Below, piece after piece: positions 35,273-40,975 of a stretch of DNA of 64,000 nucleotides (position 1 is the stretch's first letter; each line of letters opens with the position of its first letter). Where the stretch lies: assembly GCF_030733745.1 (NCBI RefSeq), contig NZ_JASHIK010000005.1, forward strand, positions 62,001-126,000, read 5' to 3'. Source of the stretch: Stappia sp. MMSF_3263 (GTDB lineage: Bacteria > Pseudomonadota > Alphaproteobacteria > Rhizobiales > Stappiaceae). Position numbers and translations under genes: made by a program. Under the pieces are notes generated by a model. It was not told where the DNA came from. It saw only the letters and a program-made list of their open reading frames with translations, and did not search any database.

Positions 35273-36193
35273 TCAGCCGGCCCCGGCCGCTTCGGCCAGG
35301 CGCAGGAGTGTCGCGCGCAGGGCCCGTGCCGCCGGCCCCAGTGCCACGTCGGTGCGGTGCATCAGGTAGATGCGGACACACGTCTCGCCGCGTTCGCCGA
35401 CCTCGACCGTCGGCACGCGTTGCAGCCGGCCTTCGGCCAGATCCCGCTCGACCAGCCAGAGCGGCAGGTTACCCCAGCCGATACCGGCCAGGATCAGGGC
35501 GTGTTTGGTGGCGTTGTCGGCGACCCGCCACGTTCCCGGTGACAGCACGTCGAAATCCTGCCCCTTCGTCAGCGGCGAGGGATCCTCCACCACCACCTGG
35601 ACATGCTCGGCCAGCTCCTCGGAACTTGCCGGCCGGCTTTCCGCGGCGAACCGGGCAAGCGGATGGCTCGCGGCGACGACCGCGGCACGCCGCACGAAAG
35701 TGAGGGTCTGGCGCTCGATGCCGGGGTCGGGAATGTCGACCCCGCTGACCGAGAGCGTGCAGCGGCTCTCGCGCAGGGCATGTACGGCTTCTCCCAGCGA
35801 GGCTGTCAGTATGCGCAGGGAGACCGAAGGCCAGGCCGTCTGCATCTCCTGCATCGCGCGGGAAACCAGCTCCTGGGGCGCCTGCGGATCGAGGGCCACC
35901 GTCAGGCCCAGTTCGACGCCGTCGCCCAGTCCGCGCGCCCGGGCACGCATCTTGTCGACCTTCAGCAGGATGGCGCGCGTGTCGGCCAGCAGCGACCGGG
36001 CTTCCGGTGTCAGCGCGGGGCGATGGCCGGAGCGGTCGAAGAGCTCGACCCCGAGCTGGGCCTCCAGGTTGCCGATGGCGTGGCTTACCGCCGACTGGAC
36101 CCGGCCGAGCCGGGCCGCCGCCGCACGGAAGCTTCCGGTCTCCGCGACAGTGGCGAAGACCCGCATCTGGTCGAGGGTCAGGGCGTCGATCAT
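35273..36193 (-). CDS. LysR-family regulator beside wrbA
   Basis: LysR-type protein, 306 residues. The DNA-binding part reads LTLDQMRVFATVAETGSFRAAAARLGRVQSAVSHAIGNLEAQLGVELFDR, and the effector domain contains GLTVALDPQAPQELVSRAM and ALILAGIGWGNLPLWL. It is divergent from wrbA and an MFS exporter gene, its probable targets. Confidence 0.92.
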   Translation of the reverse strand: MIDALTLDQMRVFATVAETGSFRAAAARLGRVQSAVSHAIGNLEAQLGVELFDRSGHRPALTPEARSLLADTRAILLKVDKMRARARGLGDGVELGLTVALDPQAPQELVSRAMQEMQTAWPSVSLRILTASLGEAVHALRESRCTLSVSGVDIPDPGIERQTLTFVRRAAVVAASHPLARFAAESRPASSEELAEHVQVVVEDPSPLTKGQDFDVLSPGTWRVADNATKHALILAGIGWGNLPLWLVERDLAEGRLQRVPTVEVGERGETCVRIYLMHRTDVALGPAARALRATLLRLAEAAGAG

Positions 36194-36214
36194 GATCGAT
36201 TTCTTAGATCAGGT

Positions 36215-36231
36215 TGAGCTAATTTTCCTCA
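36215..36231. promoter_or_regulatory. possible LysR operator between LysR and wrbA
   Basis: TGAG-N9-CTCA dyad in AT-rich DNA between the divergent genes, about 20 bases from the LysR start. It fits the loose LysR pattern T-N11-A but is short, so it is weak evidence. Confidence 0.35.
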
Positions 36232-36310
36232 GTTACATCGATATGTCCAGCCTGTCATCAGTGTTGCGGACGGCGAACCGCCGACAACAGCAGTGAGACA
36301 GGAGACGGTC

Positions 36311-36949
36311 ATGACCAGGGTACTGGTGCTTTATTATTCCTCCTACGGCCATGTCGCGACGATGGCGCAAGCGGTCGCCGAAGGGGTCAGGGAGGCCGGC
36401 GCGGAGGTGACGCTGCGCCGCGTGCCGGAGCTGGTGCCGGAGGCGGTCGCGCGCAAGTCGGGCTATGTCCTTGACCAGGAGGCGCAGGTCGCAACCGTCG
36501 CGGAACTCGCCGAGCATGACGCGGTCATTTTCGGCACGCCGACCCGCTTCGGCAACATGGCAAGCCAGATGAAGAACTTCCTCGACCAGGCCGGCGGCCT
36601 GTGGGCGAGCGATGCCCTGGTCGGCAAGCTGGCCAGCGTCTTCACCTCCACCGGCAGCCAGCATGGCGGCCAGGAGAGCACGATCCTTTCCACGCATGTG
36701 GTCTTGATGCATCTGGGCATGATCGTCGTCGGGCTGCCCTACACGTTCAAGGGCCAGATGCGGATGGACGAGATCACCGGCTGTTCGCCCTATGGCGCTT
36801 CGACGCTGGCCGACGACGGGGAGGGCGGCGACCGCAGCCCGAGCGCCAACGAGCTGGCCGGTGCGCGGTTCCAGGGCGCGCATGTCGCCCGGCTGGCCAC
36901 GGACCTGCGCCTTGGCCGGACGCAGCGCACGGGTGAGGCGGTACGGTGA
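36311..36949 (+). CDS. wrbA: NAD(P)H:quinone oxidoreductase WrbA (type IV)
   Basis: Flavodoxin-like FMN protein of 212 residues that reduces quinones by two electrons to protect against redox stress. It has [16 protein letters not shown] (FMN phosphate loop), [34 protein letters not shown] and the late [11 protein letters not shown]. These are the signature parts of WrbA. GGAGA precedes the ATG. The stop overlaps the GTG of the following MFS gene, so both are one operon, with the divergent LysR as likely regulator. Confidence 0.95.
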
Positions 36950-38124
36950 GCCTTGCCGGGACGCGCGGCGACGCCGGCCTGTGGTCGTCCATCCTGCTGG
37001 TCGTTTCCGCGGGCGTTGCCTCCGCCATTCAGGTCGGCAAGGCACCGGCGGTGCTTTCCTCGATCCAGGCCGACCTCGGTCTTTCACTGGCGGCAGTCGC
37101 CTGGCTGATGTCGGCCTTTGCCGTGACAGGCGCGCTCGCCGGCCTGCCGGTCGGCTTTCTCGTCGACCGTCTTGGGGCGAAACGGATGGTGATCGGCGGG
37201 CTGCTGGCGCAGGCGGGGGGATCGCTGCTCGGGGCGCTTGCCGGCGGCGGCACGGCGCTGGTCGCGACGCGGTTCGTCGAGGGGGCGGGCTTTCTCGCGG
37301 TGATCGTCGCGGCGCCGGCCATGGTGGTGGCGATCGCTCCCGAACGGCTGCGGGACCGCGCGATGGCGCTTTGGGCGACCTTCATGCCGGCCGGGTTGAC
37401 GATTGCGCTGCTGTCGGGGGCGCTTGCCGGGCTGCTTGGCTGGCGCGGCCTTTGGGGCGCGAACGCGGTGCTGCTCCTGCTCACCGCAACCTGCCTTGGC
37501 GTCGGGCTTCGTCTGGCCAGGGCTCCCGCGAGGCAAGGGGAAACGCCGGCACACGCGATCGGATTGACGCTGCGCGCGTCCGGTCCATGGCTGCTTGCGG
37601 GCCTCTTCTGCGCCTTCTCGGCCGCCTTCTTCTGTGTCTTCACCTTTCTGCCGGCCTATCTCACGGCGCACTTCGGGATGGGTGCCGGGGCGGCGGGTGC
37701 CGCGAGCGCGCTGGCAGTGGCCGCAAGCGGTGTCGGCAACCTCGTTTGCGGCCGCCTGCTGAGCGGCGGCGCAGGACCGCGCCGGCTGCTTGTCCTGGGC
37801 TTTTGCGTGATGGCGGCAAGCGGTGCGATGATCTTCGCGCCCTTCATGCCTGTGCTGCCGGCTCTTGCGCTTGCGATGATTTTCGCCTTTGCCAGCGGGC
37901 TCGTTCCCGTCGTTCTCTTCGACGCCGCGCCTCGCGTGGCGCCAGAAGGCCAGGTCGGAGCGACCCTCGGCCTTGCCATGCAGGGCAACAATGTCGGGTT
38001 GCTGGCCAGTCCCGCCATCGGCGGCATGGTGGCCGAGACCTGGGGCTGGCCCTTTCTCGCGCTGCCGCTGCTGGCAATCGCGCTGGTGGCGCTGGGTATT
38101 GTCGCGCTGGCCAACCGGATCTGA
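36946..38124 (+). CDS. MFS transporter
   Basis: Major facilitator of 392 residues with about twelve helices. The loop 2-3 motif A is [16 protein letters not shown]; later [12 protein letters not shown]-type and helix 4 region [23 protein letters not shown] are seen (cyanate/CynX or drug-exporter-like). The GTG start overlaps the wrbA stop by four bases. Paired with a quinone reductase and a LysR regulator, export of an aromatic or quinone-like toxicant is a reasonable guess, but the substrate is not shown. Confidence 0.88.
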
Positions 38125-38270
38125 CGCCCGCGCCGCGGTTCCATGTTGCCCCCGGGCCTGCTATCGGTTGGCTCTTGCGCACCATCCGTCGCAATCGGCT
38201 GGTCCCTGCTCGCCAGGGCCCGGCCAGACCGGCAAGAGCCCGGCCGGCGGGACCCATTCAGGCGAAGGCC

Positions 38271-38687
38271 ATGCTGTCAGACGATTTGTCCCGATGCGTC
38301 GTTCTCAACATCGTCGTAGCCGCTCGCACGCTGTTGCGCCGCTATGATGCGAAGCTGAAGCCCTACGGCGTGACCGTCCAGCAATTCGCCCTGCTGGGCG
38401 CCTTGCGGGCCTATCCGTGCGCGCCGGTCGCGGTGCTGGCCGAGCGGATCGTGCTCGACCGTACCAGCCTGACCCGCAATCTCGACCTCATGGAGCGCAA
38501 GGGACTGGTGCGGCGGGTTGCAGCGGCGGGGAACCTCCGCCTGTGCGAGCTCACCGGGAAGGGCGAGGCCCTGCTGGAGGAACTCATTCCGCAATGGCAG
38601 GCGTCGAAAGCGGATCTTCTTCACGGGATCAGCGAGCGGGACGCCGACACGTTCTTCAAGGTGGTCCGGCATATCGCGCGCGATTGA
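38271..38687 (+). CDS. MarR-family regulator
   Basis: Winged-helix regulator, 138 residues: GVTVQQFALLGALRAYPC, then VAVLAERIVLDRTSLTRNLDLMERKGLVRRV with the wing AAGNLRLCELTGKGEALLE. It lies between the MFS exporter and the KAS II-like gene, all on the plus strand. The big palindrome just before the KAS gene is 77 bases after its stop, which suggests it may regulate that gene. Confidence 0.9.
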   Translation: MLSDDLSRCVVLNIVVAARTLLRRYDAKLKPYGVTVQQFALLGALRAYPCAPVAVLAERIVLDRTSLTRNLDLMERKGLVRRVAAAGNLRLCELTGKGEALLEELIPQWQASKADLLHGISERDADTFFKVVRHIARD

Positions 38688-38763
38688 CGCGTGGTCGGGG
38701 TTTCCGCTTCGGTGACCGGTGTGGGTGCCGCTGGCGCGGAACGGGTGAAGGGATTGAATCGGG

Positions 38764-38804
38764 CTCCTTATGTGTATATGCACAGTGCAGATACACATAA
38801 GGAG
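38764..38804 (+). promoter_or_regulatory. 41-bp near-perfect palindrome covering the KAS gene ribosome binding site
   Basis: Left arm CTCCTTATGTGTAT (38764-38777) and right arm ATACACATAAGGAG (38791-38804) are exact complements, and the core TGCAC-A-GTGCA shares the same centre (38784). Only one pair (A38778 / G38790) fails, giving 20-base arms with 19 pairs. The right end is AAGGAG, the Shine-Dalgarno of the next gene, five bases before its ATG. As DNA it can be a dimer or tetramer operator; as RNA it would hide the SD. Confidence 0.85.
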
Positions 38805-38809
38805 CGGAC

Positions 38810-40078
38810 ATGTCTGAACCCATCGTTGTCACCGGACTGGGCGCGGTATCGCCCCTGGGCGCCGGCGTTCCGGCCACCTGGGAGAGATTGATCGCCGGCA
38901 GGAGCGGCGTCGGTCAAAACACGCGTTTCGACACCGAAGGCTGGAAGTGCCGCATCGCAGGCCTCGTTCCGGGCCATGAGGACGATCCGGAGGGCTTCGA
39001 TCCCGAGGCGGCGATGGATCCGCGCGAATTGCGCCGCACCGACCTTTTCATCCACTACGCGATGGCGGCGGCGCGCGAGGCGCTCGACCAGGCGGGCTGG
39101 CAGCCGGAGGATCCGGACGCGCGGCTGCGCACGGCGACGGTCATCGGCACCGGTGTCGGCGGTGTGCCGGCGATCACGGCGGCGAACGAGACGATCCGCA
39201 CAGCCGGCGTGCGCCGCCTGTCACCCTTCGTGGTGCCGTCCTTCCTGCCGAACCTTGCCAGCGGCCAGGTCTCCATCCGCTTCGGCTTCCACGGTCCGTC
39301 CGGCGCGCCGGTCACGGCCTGCGCCGCTTCCGCCCAGGCGATTGGCGATGCCATGCGGATGATCCGCTGCGGGGAGGTCGATATCGCGCTGTGCGGCGGT
39401 GCCGAGGCTTGCGTCGATCCGGTTGCGATCGGCGGGTTCACGGCGGCGAAGGCATTGTCCCTCGGCTTCAACGATGCGCCACAGCGCGCCTCAAGGCCTT
39501 TCGATGCCGGCCATGACGGCTTCGTGCTCTCGGAAGGGGCGGCGATGCTGGTGATCGAGCGGGCGAGCCATGCCGAGCGGCGCGGCGCGGTTCCGCTGGC
39601 GGTCCTGTCCGGCTATGGCACCACCACGGATGCGCATCACGTCACCGCCGGCTGGCCGGACGGGCGCGAGGCGGCACGGGCGATGGAACTGGCGCTGGCG
39701 TCGGCGAGGCTCAATGCCTCGGCGATCGGCTACGTCAACGCGCATGCGACCTCGACACCGGTCGGCGATGCGGCGGAGCTCGCGGCGCTTGAACGGGTCT
39801 TCGGCCCTGGCGGCGGCGGGGTGCCCGTCAGTTCGACCAAGTCCGCGACCGGTCACATGCTGGGTGCCGCGGGTGCCATGGAGGCGGTCTTCTCGGTGCT
39901 TGCCCTCAAGGAGGGACGCCTCCCGGCCGGGCTCAACATCGAGGAGCCGATGGAAGGGGCCGGGCGGTTCGACCTGGTTCGCGGCACGGCGCGCACTGCC
40001 GCCCCCGAGCATGTGCTGTCCAATGCCTTCGGTTTCGGCGGGGTGAATGCTGCGTTGGTGTTCAGTCGTTTCACTTGA
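38810..40078 (+). CDS. 3-oxoacyl-ACP synthase, KAS II (FabF)-like
   Basis: Thiolase-fold condensing enzyme of 422 residues. The nucleophile is Cys171 in VTACAASAQAIGDAMR; the two histidines are in NAHATSTPVGDAAE and TKSATGHMLGAAGA, so the Cys-His-His triad is complete. The C-terminal NAFGFGGVNAALVF is normal. No acyl carrier protein, FabG or FabD gene is near, so it is not the housekeeping fabF of a fab cluster; a role in adjusting membrane fatty acids under the control of the MarR protein is possible. Translation may be gated by the hairpin over its SD. Confidence 0.92.
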   Translation: MSEPIVVTGLGAVSPLGAGVPATWERLIAGRSGVGQNTRFDTEGWKCRIAGLVPGHEDDPEGFDPEAAMDPRELRRTDLFIHYAMAAAREALDQAGWQPEDPDARLRTATVIGTGVGGVPAITAANETIRTAGVRRLSPFVVPSFLPNLASGQVSIRFGFHGPSGAPVTACAASAQAIGDAMRMIRCGEVDIALCGGAEACVDPVAIGGFTAAKALSLGFNDAPQRASRPFDAGHDGFVLSEGAAMLVIERASHAERRGAVPLAVLSGYGTTTDAHHVTAGWPDGREAARAMELALASARLNASAIGYVNAHATSTPVGDAAELAALERVFGPGGGGVPVSSTKSATGHMLGAAGAMEAVFSVLALKEGRLPAGLNIEEPMEGAGRFDLVRGTARTAAPEHVLSNAFGFGGVNAALVFSRFT

Positions 40079-40216
40079 GGTTCGCGGGAACGGGTACCGG
40101 CATCTTGCTGCCACCTTCGGGGGATAGGGCGAAACGGATGGTGCTGTCTTCCGCCGGTCTTCAGACGGATCGGCCGGGACCGGGACAAAGGGGCTTGGGC
40201 GTACAGGAGACCGACG

Positions 40217-40975
40217 ATGCCGTCATCTTCCCGCGACGCGATCCTCTATCGCATGGTCACCCGCGACCATGTCTGTCCGTTCGGCCTGAAGTCGCTCGAC
40301 TTGCTCAAACGCGAGGGGTTCTCGGTCGATGACCGCCCTTTGACGACGCGGTCGGAGACAGACGCCTTCATGGCCGAACACGATGTCGAGACCACGCCGC
40401 AGACATTTATCGGCGACATCCGGGTCGGCGGCTATGACGCGTTGCTGGAGTATTTCGGCCGGGATAGCGCCGAGGAGGGTACCGCCGTCGGCTATATGCC
40501 CGTCATCGCCGTTTTCGCGATGTCGGCGCTGATGGCGCTGGCGGCAAGCTGGGCCGCCTTCGGCACGTTGCTGACGGCACGCTGCGCCGAGTGGTTCGTC
40601 GCAATCGCCATGTGCATGCTGGCGATGCTCAAGCTGCGCGACGTCGAGGGCTTTTCCAACATGTTCCTCGGCTACGACCTTCTGGCACAGCGCTGGGTTC
40701 GCTACGCCTATCTCTATCCTTTTGGCGAGGCGCTGGCCGGCGTGCTCATGATTGCCGGCGCGGCCATCTGGCTGGCGGTTCCCGTTGCCTTCGTGATCGG
40801 CGGCATTGGCGCGGTTTCCGTGTTCAAGGCCGTCTATCTCGACCGGCGCGAGCTGACCTGCGCCTGTGTCGGCGGCGACAGCAAGGTGCCGCTCGGCTTC
40901 GTGTCGCTCACGGAAAACCTGATGATGGTCGCCATGGCCATCTGGATGGCGACGGGCCGTCAGATGGCGGGCTGA
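40217..40975 (+). CDS. glutaredoxin-like domain fused to MauE-like membrane domain
   Basis: Protein of 252 residues. Residues 1-85 are glutaredoxin-like: YRMVTRDHVCPFGLKSLDLLKREG, then ETTPQTFIGDIRVGGYDALLEYF (cis-proline TPQ). The active site is CPFG, a single-cysteine form. Residues 95-250 contain four to five membrane helices as in MauE/DoxX-like proteins, with a conserved CACVGG near residue 215 and FVSLTENLMM. Such fusions may pass electrons across the membrane, or reduce disulphides or metals. A Cys pair (CAC) in the membrane part could exchange with the Grx domain. No operon partner. Confidence 0.8.
   Translation: MPSSSRDAILYRMVTRDHVCPFGLKSLDLLKREGFSVDDRPLTTRSETDAFMAEHDVETTPQTFIGDIRVGGYDALLEYFGRDSAEEGTAVGYMPVIAVFAMSALMALAASWAAFGTLLTARCAEWFVAIAMCMLAMLKLRDVEGFSNMFLGYDLLAQRWVRYAYLYPFGEALAGVLMIAGAAIWLAVPVAFVIGGIGAVSVFKAVYLDRRELTCACVGGDSKVPLGFVSLTENLMMVAMAIWMATGRQMAG

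Follow-up and report, generated by a model that had tools for sequence, protein, structure and literature searches.

FabT is a MarR-family repressor. In enterococci, streptococci and lactococci, fabT heads a multigene fab operon and the protein answers to acyl-ACP (PMC13046290, in the portion available). Two operators with 14-bp palindromic or homologous sequences, one of them over the target -10, are described for EstR-estC of Agrobacterium tumefaciens in the accessible part of PMC5201249; EstR is thus a known case of a MarR operator placed over a -10 and accompanied by another operator close by. On the side of RNA, the promoter of T4 I-TevI and of gene e is set such that only the longer read-through RNA forms a structure covering the Shine-Dalgarno (SD) sequence, and I-TevI has in addition a repressor operator on that promoter (excerpts of PMC2988022 and PMC3014915). 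For sigG of Bacillus subtilis, a 20+ bp hairpin is proposed to block the read-through transcript and is not formed in the own-promoter RNA (PMC5942855, in part).

The locus considered here lies in a 64-kb stretch of DNA, analysed as a whole and referred to as the window. It resembles EstR-estC, as far as that system is covered by the source, in the alphaproteobacterial MarR regulator beside one enzyme gene and, as predictions for the present locus, in two operators with one over the -10 and in an N-terminal sensing cysteine. Unlike here, the EstR operators belong to two promoters within a single intergenic region and do not merge into one dyad; their sequence is different and the target is an esterase as opposed to a β-ketoacyl-ACP synthase (KAS). 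The link between a MarR-family repressor and fatty-acid synthesis genes is shared with FabT, but the present locus involves a single KAS gene, with no other fab gene among six genes scanned. An SD stem restricted to the longer RNA, together with an operator on the promoter as for I-TevI, is the layout predicted for the window; in the excerpted accounts of T4 it is documented, and for phage late genes, whereas here it is predicted, and in some relatives only. The likeness to sigG consists in a hairpin layout from which the own-promoter RNA escapes, the difference in sigma-factor control and unrelated genes. A preliminary description of the locus considered two layers of control at one site unusual. 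For a gene on a bacterial chromosome this judgement is reasonable, although I-TevI, gene e and sigG offer precedents, to the extent that the sources describe them. A limited literature search returned no description of a seam of two inverted MarR operators seeding SD-covering stems repeatedly, no paper on the operator sequence or on an operator of MosR (Rv1049), one broad review on MarR with β-ketoacyl-ACP synthase and, for MarR control through two operators, EstR.

The MarR and KAS genes and the palindrome

The ORF at 38810..40078 (+) encodes a KAS II-type enzyme, with a match to PRK06333/FabF and residues Cys171, His312 and His349 present, and the gene upstream of it, 38271..38687 (+), belongs to the MarR family by its Pfam MarR_2/MarR match; both assignments agree with the preliminary description. 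Its placement of the KAS gene outside a fab cluster is true for the six genes scanned at 35273-40975, of which KAS is the sole fatty-acid synthesis gene; the fatty-acid remodelling that it suggested is a conjecture. The enzyme is 47% identical to the product of a second FabF-type gene in the same genome. Matches to the KAS protein (E up to 1e-130) were obtained in 7 of the 14 genomes in the genus, the window's own counted, and in 60 of the 87 genomes of the family. At least 80 KAS loci were named; among the matches listed, 35 are close orthologs of 65-85% identity (L056-L088, L093, L104), and 33 of these 35 have a same-strand MarR gene directly 5′ of KAS. The two exceptions are L086, where the contig edge lies just upstream of KAS, and L080, a close ortholog (74%) with neither a MarR match nor an operator. 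No further close ortholog at E 1e-185 was found in a class-wide scan of 384 other genomes. By gene arrangement, MarR and KAS are a two-gene cassette, carried mostly by Rhizobiales and by some other Alphaproteobacteria. The window's KAS is closest to a Ciceribacter KAS (85%), with the three other Stappia orthologs in the tree grouping elsewhere, and this placement, along with the patchy presence, suggests transfer of the cassette.

Neighbour clustering was noisy, overlapping-frame ORFs being counted, and was usable for the KAS and MarR clusters only. The MFS, WrbA and Grx-MauE proteins of the window gave no blastp match (1e-8, flanks up to 4 kb) in the 35 loci, and LysR gave one partial match, in L079. 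An efflux module, pairing the upstream MFS gene with a resistant KAS, was rejected on account of this result. The ORF just 3′ of KAS (40217-40975) combines a glutaredoxin-like N-terminal part with a MauE-like part and was not detected beside the other KAS loci. In L060, a second KAS-like ORF (28%) is found nearby.

The palindrome between the two genes (Table 1) has arms at 38763-38783 and 38785-38805, complementary in 20 of 21 positions (95%) around the single spacer base A38784; the sole mismatched pair is A38778/G38790. It is the object described before with 20-base arms, one mismatch and the same centre, the actual arms being one pair longer. The earlier reading of AAGGAG at the end of the right arm, five bases 5′ of the ATG, is borne out as well: the motif at 38799-38804 is followed by CGGAC and then by ATG 38810. 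No other site in the window forms 20 or more of 21 pairs with arms 0-2 bases apart, and the best dyad in 100 first-order Markov resamples of the window has 17 of 21 pairs; the occurrence is far beyond chance. The dyad was found by a search of 38500-39000, and a whole-window repeat listing (17 pairs) contained neither the dyad itself nor a pair equal to it in both length and complementarity.

A REP-like repeat element was rejected, since the half-dyad pattern is exact in the genome solely at the two arms and the next match, with one mismatch, is the MarR/thioesterase site. At up to two mismatches the genome scan gave 6 matches compared to 5 in the reversed control, and only the exact and one-mismatch matches are telling. 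The MarR/thioesterase site, TATGTGCATATGCACATA (L003 1501-1518; G000:C11:410938), is of the same operator type. In this genome it separates a 4HBT thioesterase gene from another MarR gene, whose protein shows an N-terminal CSC motif. Cross-talk between the KAS operator and this site is possible.

Table 1. Coordinates of the features at the MarR-KAS locus (positions in the window)
Feature	Position	Strand	Remarks
Whole dyad	38763..38805	.	21-nt arms, 1 mismatch, centre A38784
O1, predicted MarR-type operator TGTGTATATGCACA	38771..38784	.	near-invariant core, 36 aligned loci
O2, predicted inverted second operator AGTGCAGATACACA	38784..38797	.	centres 13 bp apart; 25/40 loci, called by eye
Predicted -35, TTGAAT	38754..38759	+	TTG at exact O1 distance in 25/36 loci; putative promoter role
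Predicted -10, TATATG within O1	38775..38780	+	spacer 15; predicted start ~38786-38790
Shine-Dalgarno, AAGGAG	38799..38804	+	right arm, read from sequence
MarR-family regulator, 138 aa	38271..38687	+	Cys9 in 34/34 aligned cassette members
KAS II-like β-ketoacyl-ACP synthase, 422 aa	38810..40078	+	catalytic Cys-His-His present

Candidate operators and predicted promoter

The element TGTGTATATGCAC (O1) is common, with few changes, to the close loci upstream of KAS, and its core positions are invariant or nearly so across 36 aligned loci (L038 was dropped for having an upstream sequence identical to L077; L080 and L086 had been left out beforehand). The strict operator pattern occurs in 31 of the 33 close named loci with MarR (34 examined), the other two, L075 and L088, having a degenerate O1. 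Among 30 additional KAS loci with 55-79% identity, taken with 1.5 kb flanks and scored for MarR by blastp (1e-5), the pattern GTGYATNTRCAC is present in all 17 with MarR and in none of the 13 without, an association that common descent inflates. The element precedes KAS, MarR or both in these further loci. Where the sole match precedes MarR (L020, L021, L022, L024, L047, L050, L052, L053, L055), the two genes may be under joint control in a single operon. The DNA site for the MarR protein envisaged in the preliminary description is thus supported, as a predicted operator whose presence follows that of MarR, both in this association and in the 33/35 adjacency.

The inverted second operator, O2, is found exactly 13 bp beyond O1 in 21 of the 36 aligned loci, the right half of L060 being one base shorter; four more from a second set, in which 10 of 14 are repeats of earlier loci, bring the total to 25 of 40. 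Its half-sites GTGC/GTGT and TACAC/TGCAC are retained while the middle three bases vary, although half-site invariance partly reflects how the loci were chosen, the two-operator class having been called by eye. A conserved middle in O1 and a variable one in O2 would be expected if the O1 middle doubles as the -10. A single operator without long dyad characterizes 15 of the 36 loci, and 9 of these 15 match the SD consensus in at least 5 of 6 positions. In the loci compared, O2 and flanks over the SD are not general among relatives. Loss of the dyad with retention of the SD had been named in advance as a refutation; what was found is mixed, with two operators in most loci and an SD-like match retained in more than half of those that have one. 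The early reading of the right arm as private to this genome came from Stappia relatives and was dropped once the wider orthologs showed O2. L064 exhibits the opposite of the usual state, a degenerate O1 with O2 a perfect dyad. The Methylobacterium orthologs L074 and L082 have one operator and a GTG at the matched start, where the SD is not clear.

In 25 of the 36 loci a TTG precedes the O1 core by 17 nt and, combined with TATATG in O1, gives a predicted -35/-10 spacing of 15 bp, which is poor for a promoter; a generic sigma-70 promoter scan yielded no match. The TTG is missing at that distance in 11 of the 36. In six loci it stands at 13 nt; two of the six have it at 17 as well, and the remaining four misfit. 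L059, L076 and L077 have a TTG 29 nt from the single operator. The gap contains a hexamer that resembles a -10 to a varying degree, and this layout would place the start at the operator instead of to its left. Both main TTG layouts predict a start that either follows the dyad centre or coincides with the operator. For the window, it is predicted near 38786-38790, right of the dyad centre, so that the own-promoter RNA would lack the left arm. The comparative promoter evidence hence predicts what the preliminary description had named as refuting its hairpin, a start downstream of 38784; this tells against the hairpin in own-promoter RNA and leaves it possible in read-through RNA.

The outer stem over the Shine-Dalgarno sequence

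The RNA of 38688-38850 folds with a hairpin over the SD (-74 kcal/mol, z -4.28), in agreement with the leader fold that had been anticipated. The folding gives an SD unpaired probability of 0.00 in the window's read-through RNA compared to 0.68 in RNA from the predicted start. The proposal of an SD-sequestering RNA hairpin is therefore retained for read-through RNA but not for the predicted own-promoter RNA, which is without the left arm. SD accessibility was rejected as a discriminator of locus classes: the medians (36 loci, two without value for the predicted-start RNA) hardly differ between two-operator and other loci, at 0.24 and 0.21 in read-through RNA and at 0.50 and 0.46 from the predicted start.

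The outer flanks, defined as pairs 14-21 from the centre and hence beyond the operators, were compared in their own pairing with flanks swapped between loci. Without bulges, 18 of 5000 permutations pair at least as well as the real flanks in 21 loci. By folding, the count is 0 of 20000 in the 21 loci; in 12 thinned loci it is 2 of 20000 on one strand and 1 on the other. It is again 0 of 20000 in 25 loci, and 2 and 0 of 20000 on the two strands with the window removed from the 25. A flank run of at least 5 pairs, small bulges allowed, is present in 9 of the 25 two-operator loci as opposed to 6% of swapped pairs. The signal is carried by about seven loci and becomes weak when the 7 strongest are left out (906 and 900 of 20000). 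The compensatory changes between the arms that had been proposed as a check are thus supported in part: own flanks do better than swapped ones in the set as a whole, but a long run is present in just the nine loci. The pairing signal is much the same on both strands, and RNA is therefore not distinguishable from DNA as its origin. Mismatches of G-T compared to A-C were discarded as a test for RNA, being too few and biased by operator degeneracy.

Eight loci were labelled as long-stem (the window, L060, L061, L064, L068, L075, L084, L088), and they differ between each other in flank sequence. They need 8 changes on the KAS tree, which was built by a quick method and has 13 of 31 inner branches open, compared to a mean of 7.4 for shuffled labels (500 of 500 as low). 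From this distribution, the SD-covering stems appear to have separate origins on the KAS tree, through either template switching or selection. The sisters L062 and L088 differ within the dyad, the changes in L088 deepening the fold from -14.6 to -28.4 kcal/mol, one of them in the O1 core. In L088, whose upstream sequence is identical in L139, the O1 core now reads TATAAG and the outer stem is perfected; the change looks like template switching.

The outer stem could be a mutational by-product of template switching at the inverted operators, with one arm copied onto the other and a near-perfect palindrome occasionally resulting, the flanks having no function; we consider the chances of this evenly balanced, and it is compatible with the operator reading of the palindrome. 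Template switching during replication reportedly gives rise to hairpins and keeps them intact (PMC8794818, in the part available). The long stems fit such an origin in being single, no more clustered than shuffled labels, diverse in flank sequence and strand-symmetric in signal, as do the several pairing changes of L088, one at the expense of the O1 core. However, L088 keeps a mismatch inside the stretch, for which one continuous copy is insufficient, selection for pairing predicts much the same pattern, and the tree is weak. Rather than replacing the operators, a second layer might have been added to them, as in the layout of I-TevI and gene e: KAS synthesis would depend solely on its own promoter in the derepressed state, where the RNA begins within the stem and is unable to form it, while RNA reading through from the MarR gene would be closed by the hairpin. 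The codirectional MarR gene, no terminator being found in 38600-38900, the contrast in SD accessibility within the window, the superiority of own over swapped flanks with or without the window, and the deepened fold of L088 are all consistent with this arrangement. Given that the long runs are few and the signal fades without the strongest loci, that the strands are alike and RNA is not singled out, and that read-through SD accessibility is similarly low in one-operator loci, we regard it as rather unlikely.

A plain translational switch, thermometer or riboswitch, in which the hairpin is always on the KAS mRNA and melted by a signal, would account for the strong fold over the SD, yet we deem it highly improbable. 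The Rfam scan of the window at gathering score gave a single match, a tRNA at 614-684, and no riboswitch or thermometer family, on which basis a known RNA family was rejected; the predicted start falls downstream of the left arm, a flank run of at least 5 or O2 itself is missing from 31 of 40 loci, and the conserved part is the operator tracking MarR. A hairpin layer is accordingly possible from the modelling, but an RNA hairpin is probably relevant only in read-through transcripts, if at all, and present in only some relatives. The composite idea of a MarR operator pair doubling as an SD-hiding hairpin, where a stem originating at the inverted operators is lengthened over the SD again and again to give a two-layer lock (repressor on the inner promoter, hairpin silencing read-through RNA of the repressor gene), is one we consider rather unlikely.

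Proposed model and meaning

The palindrome is most probably a bipartite operator of the adjacent MarR protein on the KAS promoter. Two inverted 14-bp dyad copies, joined by one common base, would place O1, 83 bp 3′ of the MarR gene end, over the -10 and O2 over the transcription start and early leader. MarR dimers on both would exclude RNA polymerase, until some signal releases them, perhaps through Cys9, the invariant cysteine near the N-terminus, in the manner of MosR and EstR. Pairing of the outer flank with the SD would be an addition in a minority of relatives, which at the RNA level could affect only those transcripts that read in from the MarR gene. The model draws on sequence, conservation and the association of operator and MarR, and from these we infer that MarR binds and represses; the promoter, its start and the signal are likewise predictions.

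Cys9 is present in all 34 cassette MarR proteins (34 of 35 if a paralogue row trimmed of its N-terminus is included). The closest solved sequence relative is PDB 4fx0/4fx4 (E 5.2e-16), which we take to be MosR of Mycobacterium tuberculosis, and Cys9 aligns with the first cysteine of the N-terminal C-x-C in the MosR chain. In MosR, Cys10 is paired with Cys12 (PMC5823404, in part), unlike the cassette MarR, which has a single cysteine there; the target genes also differ. Redox or electrophile sensing by the cassette MarR is a lead only.

With the current analysis, the MarR-KAS cassette gains a defined candidate operator. The stems give reason for caution in that covarying arms are no proof of RNA function. 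The relatives constitute a natural series of loci, with one operator, with two operators, and with two operators plus an SD stem, and this series bears on the question of whether it is mutation alone, or selection, that turns inverted operators into RNA hairpins.
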